From assembly GCA_013391385.1 (NCBI GenBank), contig JACBFI010000001.1, positions 62,001 through 126,000 of the forward strand: DNA of 64,000 bases, in the 5' to 3' direction. The stretch comes from Sediminibacterium sp. Gen4. Its GTDB lineage: Bacteria > Bacteroidota > Bacteroidia > Chitinophagales > Chitinophagaceae. The notes beneath the pieces were generated by a model, which was not told where the DNA came from, did no database searches, and saw only the letters and a program-made list of their open reading frames with translations. Made by a program: the position numbers and the translations under genes. Shown in pieces: positions 996 through 62,451 of this stretch (within the stretch, counting starts at the first letter, position 1; each line of letters starts with the position of its first letter).

Positions 996-1006
996 TGATT
1001 TTGAAG

Positions 1007-1080
1007 TCGGCCCACCTGGGCTTGAACCAGGGACCCTCCCGACTTATGTCGGGATGCTCTAACCAACTGAGCTTACCAAA
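1007..1080 (-). pseudogene. tRNA-like copy A: anticodon arm replaced by a palindrome
   Basis: On the minus strand the D arm (AGCTCAGTTGGTTAGAGC) and the T arm with 3' acceptor strand (CCTGGTTCAAGCCCAGG, TGGGCC) match the CAU tRNA at 29055-29128. The 17-nt anticodon arm is replaced by an 18-nt near-perfect palindrome at 1037-1054 (TCCCGACTTATGTCGGGA on the plus strand). The 5' acceptor strand no longer pairs with the 3' strand. It cannot be a normal decoding tRNA. The same palindrome type fills the same slot in copy B at 29436-29497. Confidence 0.75.
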
Positions 1081-29053: not shown

Positions 29054-29101
29054 GTGGGCCCACCTGGGCTTGAACCAGGGACCCCCTGATTATGAGTCAG
29101 G
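29054..29101 (-). other. attR: 48-bp core repeat within the CAU tRNA
   Basis: Perfect copy of 1113-1160. It spans the tRNA anticodon arm, T arm and 3' acceptor strand, so integration restores a functional tRNA. Confidence 0.9.
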
Positions 29102-29128
29102 TGCTCTAACCAGCTGAGCTATAGGCCC
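29055..29128 (-). tRNA. tRNA with anticodon CAU (elongator Met or lysidine Ile2)
   Basis: 74 nt. Acceptor GGGCCTA pairs with TGGGCCC; D arm GCTC/GAGC; anticodon arm CCTGA-CTCATAA-TCAGG; T arm CCTGG-TTCAAGC-CCAGG. All arms pair. It is not initiator-type, because the anticodon stem lacks the three G-C pairs. Whether it reads Met or, after lysidine modification, Ile AUA cannot be decided from this sequence alone. The gene is the integration target of the island. Confidence 0.93.
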
Positions 29129-29161: not shown

Positions 29162-29416
29162 TTACAGTTGATTTTTATCTTGAATTAATTGCATAATCAT
29201 TTTACGACTTTTCCATTGTTTTATCTGCTTCTCACGAACTAGTGCCGCAGTCTTGTTTTCCTGCAATTCTGTCCAAACAATTTCCCAGTCTTTTGCTTTT
29301 CCAGTAAAGCCTGAGTGTTCCGAGAGATGTTTAGTAAGTCGGTTTTGTGTGTCGGAAGTGGAACCAATATAATATCGATCTAAATCTTTTGAATATAGAA
29401 TGTATACATAATACAT
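29162..29416 (-). CDS. GIY-YIG (URI-type) endonuclease
   Basis: 84 residues from the ATG at 29416 (MYYVYILYSKDLDRYYIGST): the YVYIL...YYIG strands, the conserved Arg after the helix (NRLTKHLSEH) and a Glu in REKQIKQWKSRK are the GIY-YIG nuclease signature. The frame is open for 28 more codons upstream, but those are translation of tRNA-like copy B. Family members are single-domain nucleases; some are homing or repair enzymes. The gene sits between tRNA-like copy B and the intact CAU tRNA and has no promoter of its own except that of copy B. Confidence 0.9.
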   Translation of the reverse strand: MYYVYILYSKDLDRYYIGSTSDTQNRLTKHLSEHSGFTGKAKDWEIVWTELQENKTAALVREKQIKQWKSRKMIMQLIQDKNQL

Positions 29417-29435
29417 TAAACTATACTGATTTATT

Positions 29436-29497
29436 CTGGGACCCTCCCGACTTAAGTCGGGATGCCATACTCCTCCTTTGGCGGAAGCTATAAGCCC
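29436..29497 (-). pseudogene. tRNA-like copy B: D arm and anticodon arm replaced by palindromes
   Basis: Starts like the CAU tRNA (GGGCTTATAGCT versus GGGCCTATAGCT) and later resumes GGGTCCC. The D arm is replaced by an imperfect palindrome at 29471-29485 (TCCGCC-AAA-GGAGGA on the minus strand), the anticodon arm by the perfect 18-bp palindrome TCCCGACTTAAGTCGGGA at 29445-29462. The T arm and 3' acceptor strand are absent; sequence continues into the GIY-YIG gene. It keeps a tRNA-type promoter. Confidence 0.75.
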
Positions 29498-29517
29498 CAA
29501 CCTTTCGGCTGAGGCGG

Positions 29518-61341: not shown

Positions 61342-61653
61342 GTGTTTAATATCATCACCAGAAAAACCTTACTGGAGTACTGTAGGAAATACCCGGCTGC
61401 CGCAACAGCTTTGCAGGAGTGGTATCATGAACTGGTGAATGCTGATTTTAAAAACTTTAATGAGTTAAAAAAAGTCTATGGAAATGCGAGTCTGGTTGCG
61501 GATGACAGGGTTGTCTTTAATATTATGGGAAATAAATACAGATTGGTGGTAAGAATGGTGTTTGATTATAAAGCCATTCAGATAAAATGGTTTGGTACAC
61601 ATGCTGAATACGATAAGATAGATGTTACAACCATTCCTTTTAAAAAGAAATAA
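61342..61653 (+). CDS. higB: HigB-type mRNA interferase toxin
   Basis: 103 residues starting with GTG at 61342 (MFNIITRKTLLEYCRKYP). The sequence AATALQEWYHELVNADFKNF and VVFNIMGNKYRLVVRMVFDY followed by IKWFGTHAEYDKID matches the HigB toxin family, RelE-like ribosome-dependent RNases. The toxin gene precedes its antitoxin, as usual for HigBA, with a 2-nt gap. Confidence 0.92.
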   Translation: MFNIITRKTLLEYCRKYPAAATALQEWYHELVNADFKNFNELKKVYGNASLVADDRVVFNIMGNKYRLVVRMVFDYKAIQIKWFGTHAEYDKIDVTTIPFKKK

Positions 61654-61655
61654 GT

Positions 61656-62012
61656 ATGGAACTTAAAATCATAAAAACAAAAAAGCAATACCAGGAATAC
61701 CTCGATTGGGTTGATAAACAATTTGATCGCCGCATTAAGCCCAACAGTGCTGAAGGTGAGAAAGTTCAGGTAGCCCTTTTGTTGATCAAACAGTATGAAG
61801 ATGTTCATTATCCTGTTCCTGTGCCCGATCCTATAGAAGTCATTAAATTAAAGATGCAGGATTTGGGTTTGAAAAATAAAGATTTAGTTGGGAAATTTGG
61901 TAGCAAGGGATATGTATCGGCATTACTGAACAAGCGTAAACCACTCACACTGGAACTGGCAAAGTTGTTTCACAGGGAGTTGAGTATTCCTGCGGAAGTA
62001 TTGTTGGCATAA
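61656..62012 (+). CDS. higA: HigA-type antitoxin
   Basis: 118 residues. The N-terminal half is toxin-binding (YQEYLDWVDKQFDRRIKPN), the C-terminal half a helix-turn-helix (LGLKNKDLVGKFGSKGYVSA). Represses its own operon and neutralises HigB. Co-transcribed with higB. Confidence 0.9.
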   Translation: MELKIIKTKKQYQEYLDWVDKQFDRRIKPNSAEGEKVQVALLLIKQYEDVHYPVPVPDPIEVIKLKMQDLGLKNKDLVGKFGSKGYVSALLNKRKPLTLELAKLFHRELSIPAEVLLA

Positions 62013-62044
62013 CAGTATTTTGGTTAAAGAATCCGATAAAAGAA

Positions 62045-62085
62045 AAAAAAGCCTTGTAAAGTAAATTTTTACAAGGCTTCTTTTT
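62045..62085. terminator. Bidirectional terminator
   Basis: GCCTTGTAAA...TTTACAAGGC stem between higA and tRNA-Asn-like copy 3, with A- and T-runs on both sides. Confidence 0.8.
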
Positions 62086-62103
62086 CTGCCTTATTAGTCG
62101 CCA

Positions 62104-62210
62104 AAAAGCAAAGCCGGACTTGAATACCGACGATGCTGTCTACACCCCGACCGTAGCGTCGGAACCAGCGACCCTCTGATTAATCCGCCTCAGGCGGGAG
62201 CTATTTGGGA
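62104..62210 (-). pseudogene. tRNA-Asn-like copy 3: deletion plus palindromes in anticodon and T loops
   Basis: 5' acceptor TCCCAAATAGCT is intact, but D and anticodon arms are collapsed onto one palindrome at 62184-62199 (TCCGCCTCAGGCGGGA), as if two palindromes recombined. The T loop carries a 40-nt insertion at 62125-62164 bounded by CCGACG/CGTCGG. The 3' acceptor has substitutions. It cannot decode. Confidence 0.75.
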
Positions 62211-62242
62211 ATAAAAAAATCCCCACATTGCTGTGAGGACTT
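62211..62242 (-). terminator. Terminator of tRNA-Asn-like copy 2
   Basis: AGTCCTCACA/TGTGGGGATT stem with seven T on the minus strand, directly after copy 2. Confidence 0.75.
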
Positions 62243-62244
62243 CG

Positions 62245-62335
62245 CTCCCAAAGCTGGACTTGAACCAGCGACCCTCTGATTAATCCGCCTCAGGCGGAAT
62301 GCTCTAACCCCTCCTCAGGCGGGAGCTATTTGGGA
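62245..62335 (-). pseudogene. tRNA-Asn-like copy 2: palindromes in D loop and anticodon loop
   Basis: Acceptor stem (TCCCAAA/TTTGGGA), T arm and flanks equal tRNA-Asn at 62378-62451. In the D loop AACTGA is replaced by CCTCCTCAGGCGGGA (62310-62324); in the anticodon arm CAGTCAG is replaced by the palindrome TCCGCCTCAGGCGGA (62284-62298). The GUU anticodon is lost. Promoterless unless read from the tRNA-Asn upstream; has its own terminator. Confidence 0.8.
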
Positions 62336-62344
62336 AGTATAAAA

Positions 62345-62376
62345 AAGAAAAAGCCTCACATTTCTGCGAGGCTTTT
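62345..62376 (-). terminator. Terminator of tRNA-Asn
   Basis: AAGCCTCGCA...TGTGAGGCTT stem followed by T-run on the minus strand, right after the intact tRNA. Confidence 0.8.
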
Positions 62377-62377
62377 G

Positions 62378-62451
62378 CTCCCAAAGCTGGACTTGAACCA
62401 GCGACCCTCTGATTAACAGTCAGATGCTCTAACCAACTGAGCTATTTGGGA
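62378..62451 (-). tRNA. tRNA-Asn (GUU)
   Basis: 74 nt. Acceptor TCCCAAA/TTTGGGA, D arm GCTC/GAGC, anticodon arm TCTGA-CTGTTAA-TCAGA with GTT, T arm GCTGG-TTCAAGT-CCAGC, discriminator G. All arms pair. First and only intact member of a three-unit array. Confidence 0.96.

Follow-up and report, generated by a model that had tools for sequence, protein, structure and literature searches.

The tRNA-Asn array described here, in which an intact gene is followed by two degenerate copies, is probably the product of homing-type elements which live in tRNA genes, occur chiefly in Bacteroidota, and carry a small nuclease of the GIY-YIG type. We assign a probability of roughly two in three to this reading. 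Confidence in the general association of such nucleases with tRNA genes is higher than confidence in this explanation of the array. The window, that is the whole stretch of 64,000 nucleotides that was analysed, is part of a draft genome of 3.52 Mb in 59 contigs.

The tRNA-Asn Array

ARAGORN located two tRNA genes in the window, a tRNA-Asn(GTT) and a tRNA-Met(CAT), both on the minus strand (Table 1). The array spans positions 62104–62451 of the minus strand, with terminator-like hairpins 3' of the tRNA-Asn and of each of the two copies behind it. The initial annotation had described an intact tRNA-Asn with two palindrome-bearing copies, and ARAGORN and alignment bear this out for the D, anticodon, and T arms. 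For copy 2 it had placed palindromes in the D and anticodon loops and had regarded acceptor and T arm as intact. Both palindromes and the preserved acceptor and T arm were found, but the palindromes mostly replace arm sequence and are not added inside intact loops. In the D loop CCGCCTGAGGAGG, which has one mismatch, stands where the parent has AGTT, and in the anticodon arm nucleotides 28–34 are replaced by TCCGCCTGAGGCGGA, so that the 5' strand of the anticodon stem is gone. The suggestion that copy 3 arose by fusion of two palindromes fits its junction, which runs from nucleotide 12 in the D loop through one palindrome to nucleotide 35, and the proposed insertion in its T loop is present with a length of 40 nucleotides. 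A genome-wide search with a 19-nucleotide piece of this insert gave no second match at fewer than three mismatches, so the insert was discarded as a candidate dispersed repeat.

The array contains no GIY-YIG gene, and no such open reading frame was found near 61–64 kb; the sole GIY-YIG match of the whole window, at 29183–29413, belongs to the tRNA-Met locus. Beside the array, at 61342–62012 of the plus strand, lie two adjoining reading frames which by eye make a candidate toxin-antitoxin pair of the HigB/HigA type.

Table 1: Features of the tRNA-Asn array and of the tRNA-Met copies and nuclease gene in the window.
Feature	Position	Strand	Remarks
Intact tRNA-Asn (GTT), parent of the array	62377..62451	-	ARAGORN; Infernal 74.4 bits, the best tRNA match of the genome
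Terminator-like hairpin behind intact tRNA-Asn	62346..62379	-	Inverted repeat I2, then T run
tRNA-Asn copy 2	62244..62335	-	Changed in D and anticodon arms; T arm and both acceptor strands preserved
Imperfect palindrome in copy 2	62310..62322	-	One mismatch; part of D loop replaced
Perfect palindrome in anticodon arm of copy 2	62284..62298	-	Stands for nucleotides 28–34; parental sequence again from nucleotide 35
tRNA-Asn copy 3	about 62109..62210	-	3' end decayed
Palindrome in copy 3	62185..62197	-	Bridges D-loop nucleotide 12 and nucleotide 35
T-loop insert of copy 3	62125..62164	-	40 nucleotides, with inverted repeats
Terminator-like hairpin behind copy 3	62041..62087	-	Inverted repeat I1
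Intact tRNA-Met (CAT), host of the nuclease-bearing element of the window	29054..29128	-	ARAGORN
GIY-YIG nuclease reading frame between upstream half-copy and tRNA-Met	29162..29500	-	112 amino acids as listed; PF01541 E=2e-16
tRNA-Met upstream 5'-half copy	29437..29497	-	Palindromes 29445–29462 (anticodon arm) and 29471–29485 (D arm)
tRNA-Met copy	1006..1073	-	Anticodon arm, nucleotides 27–43, replaced by palindrome 1037–1054; 5' acceptor strand lost

A GIY-YIG Nuclease Gene Beside tRNA Genes

The parallel that had been drawn to a CAU tRNA is real, as in both tRNA-Met copies of the window the anticodon arm is replaced by a palindrome. What had escaped the initial annotation is that a GIY-YIG nuclease gene accompanies many copies; a small gene of this type was recognised in the approximately 300 bp between tRNAs and their downstream copies. 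The likely start codon of the reading frame in the window, at 29416, yields a protein of 84 amino acids, and the GIY-YIG domain extends over 29204–29416. Eleven GIY-YIG matches occur in the genome, comprising a UvrC-sized reading frame, a reading frame of 402 amino acids, and nine standalone genes. A tRNA gene is found within 100 bp of seven of the nine (p 3e-15); the two exceptions form the second units in arrays at tRNA-Asp and tRNA-Val.

For a class-wide set which was not selected for hairpins, the nuclease of the window was searched against 119 genomes, 78 of which gave a match, and 90 loci were taken, i.e., the best 30 including that of the window and 60 picked down the ranking of the longer list. 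A tRNA gene called by ARAGORN was found within 300 bp in 58 of these 90 loci, in every case on the same strand. The nuclease gene stood behind the tRNA in 50 and before it in eight, and 18 isoacceptors were represented, tRNA-Asn eight times. The share of tRNA-linked loci was 25/30 among the best matches versus 33/60 among the weaker ones, with a chance expectation estimated at about 1%. Among same-order relatives, with one small GIY-YIG gene per genome, 8 of 17 loci were tRNA-linked. Beyond the gene a half-copy of the same tRNA was found in 37 of 55 readable class-wide cases (shuffled control 0/55), and a hairpin stood at the half-copy in 33 of the 37. One genome holds nine equally scoring nuclease copies at a spacing of 457 bp, which indicates that arrays amplify.

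The protein of the window matches the GIY-YIG catalytic domain in Pfam, and the positions Y, Y, G, R, H, and E, which by analogy to I-TevI we take to be the catalytic ones, are conserved in 96–100% of 103 tRNA-linked proteins. In a tree of the nucleases the tRNA labels cluster, with 40 changes compared to a mean of 69.8 for shuffled labels (as low in 0 of 200 shuffles), though the tree was built from 83 columns and near relatives and is weakly resolved. No ARAGORN tRNA lay within 300 bp of the remaining 32 of the 90 loci. When these and eight other loci were searched with Rfam, the only RNA genes detected among the 40 were two tRNAs, one weak and close to the gene (L301) and one at a distance of 411 bp (L392). 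A general RNA-gene target of the nuclease was dismissed on the grounds that Rfam revealed no RNA other than tRNA beside the 32 loci, and the loci which remain without a tRNA probably encode other GIY-YIG proteins. Nor is a stop codon inside the hairpin a rule, as only 9 of 38 nuclease reading frames end there.

Polarity of the Half-Copies

A scan of the GTDB contig collection for the tRNA-copy pattern gave at least 119 stretches, at least 103 of them from records named Bacteroidota. Of their 167 matches, 113 in 79 stretches could be assigned by a score cut to a parent tRNA on the same strand and no more than 2.5 kb away; the other 40 stretches, which were contig ends, arrays without a parent, and chance hits, were left out. 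Seventy-two of the 79 stretches came from Bacteroidota, and seven were titled from six other phyla or untitled. The same pattern beside the parent tRNA was seen in records titled Marinimicrobia, Ignavibacteria, Kiritimatiellae, Deltaproteobacteria, Dehalococcoidia, and Chlorobiota (L131, L148, L154, L168, L174, and L186), with titles that look like metagenome bins, where binning errors are possible.

Removal of repeats within loci left 88 copies, and 86 of them could be scored at both ends. In this hairpin-selected set the broken copies show a polarity around the intact tRNA, whose strand they share. The 5' end was preserved in 30 of the 33 upstream copies and the 3' end in none of the 33. Among the 53 downstream copies 39 retained the 3' end and five the 5' end. 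The expectation that copies always lie downstream of an intact tRNA therefore failed, as they occur on both sides as opposite halves. Copy 2 of the window keeps both acceptor strands, which elsewhere was the case in only two of the 86 scorable copies. Among the 53 downstream cases 34 had a same-strand GIY-YIG gene placed strictly in the interval from tRNA to copy, and 19 had none there; the spacing was mostly near 300 bp with the gene and 21–164 bp without it. For upstream copies the gene lay strictly between in only 3 of 33. It was found within 600 bp in 13 of the 33, and the idea that most upstream copies have a nuclease gene beside them was given up.

Position of the Junction

Junctions were collected by requiring at least eight nucleotides of parental tRNA on each side and dropping natural arms, which gave 89 hairpins and by its design misses acceptor ends. 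After removal of loci read twice, 39 junctions remained from loci selected by their hairpin, a set in which 26|44 is favoured by the search pattern as such, and 45 from the genome of the window and the GIY-selected loci. In the latter set the insertion point was largely fixed for each type of tRNA, with 37|50 in 6/9 for Asp, 37|48 in 5/8 for Met, 34|41 in 2/3 for Ala, 26|44 in 2/3 for Pro, and 24|35 in 5/11 for Asn, which has two classes. The copies of the window have 27|35 and 12|35, and both thus share the commonest Asn point, i.e., resumption at nucleotide 35. Ends of the form TCC...GGA were found in 35 of the 45 hairpins.

The palindromes had been thought to be tied to loops. The interval of the junction indeed meets the anticodon loop in 32 of the 45, but 13 lie elsewhere (eight in the D region, four in the T region, and one in the variable region). 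The hairpin marks a junction close to the anticodon whose position is specific to the tRNA. The tRNA-Asn loci with a GIY-YIG gene numbered nine, two of which (L338 and L352) had no half-copy. Among the seven with a hairpin in the anticodon arm, the parental sequence resumes at nucleotide 35, like in both copies of the window, in five (L274, L298, L348, L355, and L394); the second class, 31|43-44, is represented by L293 and, by eye, L300. Locus L394 shows the full element, with a tRNA-Asn, a terminator like that of the window, the nuclease gene, and then a copy with a hairpin before TTAATCAGAGGG.

Empty and Occupied Alleles

At the tRNA-Asp locus occupied and empty alleles exist at one site in close relatives. 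Within the genus, 17 of 18 tRNA-Asp loci had no second tRNA-Asp match, two of them being cut within 53 nucleotides behind the tRNA. In genome G006 a 5' half-copy and a nuclease gene lie upstream of the tRNA, and in G036 and the genome of the window a nuclease gene and a half-copy lie downstream. G006 and the genome of the window have the junction CCTGTCA|hairpin|CGGGTTCG in common with differing hairpins. A native downstream flank behind the displaced tRNA-Asp half was sought in genome G007, and only terminator similarity was found. A second tRNA-Asn match occurred in none of 24 same-genus tRNA-Asn loci, two of which are cut within 92 nucleotides behind the tRNA. Locus L329 repeats no more than a few bases from the 3' end of the tRNA.

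These clean empty loci also speak against an assembly artefact, which had been named as a way to refute the initial annotation. The artefact is unlikely because copies of the same kind recur beside the parent tRNA in many independent assemblies, including those of isolates (L114, L142, and L144), and it was rejected.

Palindromes across the Genome

Exact matches to the palindrome TCCGCCTNAGGCGGA number 21 in the genome, and tolerating one mismatch raises the count to 39; the reversed control has no exact match, and the recurrence exceeds chance. Six of the 21 exact sites have a tRNA gene no more than 400 bp away (binomial p 3e-8). Another family, made up of TCCCGACTTNNGTCGGGA and similar sequences, was found in 11 places at up to one mismatch; nine of these places are in tRNA copies that fit the search pattern. 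A hairpin of this kind, 17–18 nucleotides long, stands for the entire anticodon arm, nucleotides 27–43, where tRNA-Val, -Met, -Arg(TCT), and -Thr are copied, and tRNA-Ala is close to the same. An exact search with the pattern GCATCCCGAN{3,9}TCGGGANGGTC gave 12 matches in the genome, at least one in 4 of 23 same-order genomes, and none in 36 same-genus genomes.

Outside tRNAs, the RNase P RNA of this genome (253 bits; L016 1404–1789, contig C18) has helix tips formed by at least three distinct palindromes, that of the window among them. A TPP riboswitch (L018 1310–1414, contig C24) has the palindrome CCGCCTAAGGCGG in its P3 loop, and 3' half-copies of 5S rRNA with a palindrome at a hairpin follow an intact 5S gene, arranged tandemly together with terminators (L062 1–224, C55; L023 1250–1656, C46). 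The palindromes are thus not confined to tRNAs. The notion of a general process which targets tRNA loops holds far beyond one genome in so far as tRNAs are concerned, but is too narrow with regard to these three RNAs. No GIY-YIG gene was detected next to the gene for RNase P RNA; at the TPP riboswitch the nearest such gene is about 1 kb away and is part of a tRNA-Met element. The 5S half-copies are situated at the ends of contigs C55 and C46, where they may break the assembly. Near position 1501 of L015 and positions 515 and 1044 of L005, in the same genome, the same palindromes cap terminator-like hairpins with T runs behind them, and further palindromes of this kind sit in DNA with no obvious RNA gene.

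Proposed Mechanism and Alternative Explanations

In the mechanism which we propose, the small nuclease would cut a tRNA gene near the anticodon, and repair from a copy that bears the element would insert a tRNA half together with the nuclease gene. This would regenerate the intact tRNA and leave the displaced half as a broken copy, which is the anatomy observed at the loci. In the displaced copy the presumed cut region has given way to a GC-rich hairpin, in most cases one with TCC...GGA ends; the hairpin's source and the reason for its presence are conjectural, though by destroying the target it would stop recutting there. Tandem arrays such as those observed could arise by repeated rounds or by unequal recombination. 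Where upstream copies have no gene, it may have been lost or the copies may have been made in trans, and likewise the tRNA-Asn array, with no nuclease gene of its own, would be a decayed element or remnant, or would have been made in trans. Because the gene is absent and copy 2 keeps both acceptor strands, the assignment of the array rests on junction, hairpin family, and tandem layout.

Several findings count against this scheme. The intact tRNA of a carrier retains the presumed target, the gene is absent from the tRNA-Asn array as from most upstream and a good part of the downstream copies, similar hairpins occur in RNase P RNA and a TPP riboswitch with no adjoining nuclease gene, tRNA-Asn has a second class of junctions, and roughly a third of the GIY-YIG loci (32/90) have no tRNA nearby.

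The strongest competitor, which we nevertheless consider rather unlikely, is that a RAYT (Y1) transposase or a similar enzyme carries REP-like hairpins into any non-essential stem-loop, with tRNA duplicates as tolerant places and the GIY-YIG genes as unrelated neighbours. It would readily accommodate the genome-wide spread of the palindromes, including RNase P RNA, the TPP riboswitch P3 loop, and the 5S half-copies, as well as the many upstream copies with no nuclease gene in between. The single Y1 transposase gene of the genome, at C59:89901 (L238 1002–1520), adjoins TCCGGACTTTAGTCCGGA and TCCGGGCTTCAGCCCGGA, of which TCCGGACTTTAGTCCGGA is a related form and not the sequence of the tRNA copies, and has two TCC...CTTNAG...GGA palindromes beside it in facing orientation; yet a hairpin of the right form was present at only 4 of 20 Y1 loci inspected. 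What the transposase would not predict is the polarity of 5' and 3' halves, a GIY-YIG gene between the tRNA and its downstream copy, or junctions fixed for each tRNA with differing hairpins. The distribution among genomes is neutral: either palindrome pattern was found in 7 of 60 genomes, and all seven, that of the window included, have a Y1_Tnp match (versus 23 of 60 overall) and also an extra GIY-YIG gene, so that co-occurrence does not tell RAYT from GIY-YIG. RAYT may be a candidate for the spreading of the hairpins themselves.

Far less probable are two other explanations. Integrases that use tRNA genes could by repeated integrations have left 3' fragments downstream as remnants of attachment sites, and one likely real case is at hand in the window, where the 3' 48 nucleotides of the tRNA-Met are repeated exactly at 1113–1160, about 28 kb away, as for an integrative element in a tRNA-Met gene. 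A repeat left by an attachment site should match the tRNA exactly. This repeat is the one copy that does so over the core of the tRNA end; in the Asn copies and the junction set hairpins have taken the place of the core, copies also occur upstream as 5' halves, and they lie 15–978 bp from the tRNA, often with a GIY-YIG gene in between. Slightly less credible still is a selected function of the tRNA-like copies as regulators or as decoys, e.g., of tRNA-cleaving toxins or RNase P, with the hairpins as stabilising elements. The location of the copies on the tRNA strand with terminator-like hairpins behind them would suit such RNAs, and the fold z-score of copy 2 (-2.33) is about that of the intact tRNA (-2.07). 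Copy 3, on the other hand, folds like its shuffles (0.00), the tRNA-Asn array has no counterpart in the 24 same-genus loci, and the hairpin sequence varies freely at one junction.

Homing of GIY-YIG elements remains our preferred reading. A wider one, put forward tentatively and rather doubtful at present, is that widespread selfish minimal GIY-YIG nucleases break tRNA genes close to the anticodon, at a point which differs with the isoacceptor, with healing by exchange of hairpin for hairpin, and that the same exchange reshapes RNase P RNA, 5S rRNA, and riboswitches in a mobile-hairpin process which uses stem-loops as units. If the homing reading is right, a widespread bacterial chromosomal homing element would target tRNA genes without killing them, and many arrays of tRNA pseudogenes in Bacteroidota would be accounted for. 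Nature would then offer a set of nucleases whose target points are specific to particular tRNAs, and the replacement of stem-loops by hairpins in RNA genes would become directly testable.

Comparison with Known Systems

Small dispersed palindromes, some of them inside genes, and palindrome-flanked Y1 transposases are shared with REP/RAYT systems and the palindromic elements of Rickettsia, which carry GTAG or CGTC tags (PMC3733652), whereas the hairpins described here mostly have TCC...GGA ends and are bound in position to the anticodon regions of tRNAs that adjoin GIY-YIG genes. The repetitive hairpin-forming and double-hairpin elements known from mitochondria likewise are repeated hairpins with conserved stems and variable loops which are thought to be mobile; an associated nuclease and tRNA half-copies, as found here, are not described in the accessible sections of that report (PMC2800124). 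Among the literature matches listed, judged by titles and the beginnings of abstracts with few subscription journals covered, none described GIY-YIG genes that lie at tRNA genes of Bacteroidota.

The closest relatives in terms of behaviour are found in phages and fungal mitochondria. The cuts of the phage nuclease SegB have been mapped inside tRNA genes, and the enzyme drives tandem amplification of tRNA and nuclease gene (PMC13096335, citing Brok-Volchanskaya 2008). SegB and related phage GIY-YIG homing endonucleases reside beside tRNA genes of many isotypes, like the nucleases described here, but in phage genomes and not in chromosomes, and the portions of the source at hand do not describe half-tRNA copies or junction hairpins (PMC13096335). 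With the nuclease of the window no tblastn match at E 1e-5 was obtained in 50,697 phage records. In fungal mitochondria, mobile endonuclease reading frames displace the 3' ends of genes, i.e., of atp6 in Allomyces and of atp6, atp9, cox2, and nad3 in Glomus, where one of the four (atp9) is of the GIY-YIG type, and the hybrid host gene is expressed (PMC3630166). As in our case an endonuclease gene is inserted together with a replacement gene end and the native end persists as a displaced duplicate downstream; unlike in our case the hosts are mitochondrial protein genes, and neither a junction hairpin nor an upstream form is described in the excerpted text (PMC3630166). If the proposed reading is right, the elements in Bacteroidota tRNA genes would be comparable to these displaced gene ends of mitochondria and to SegB of phages.
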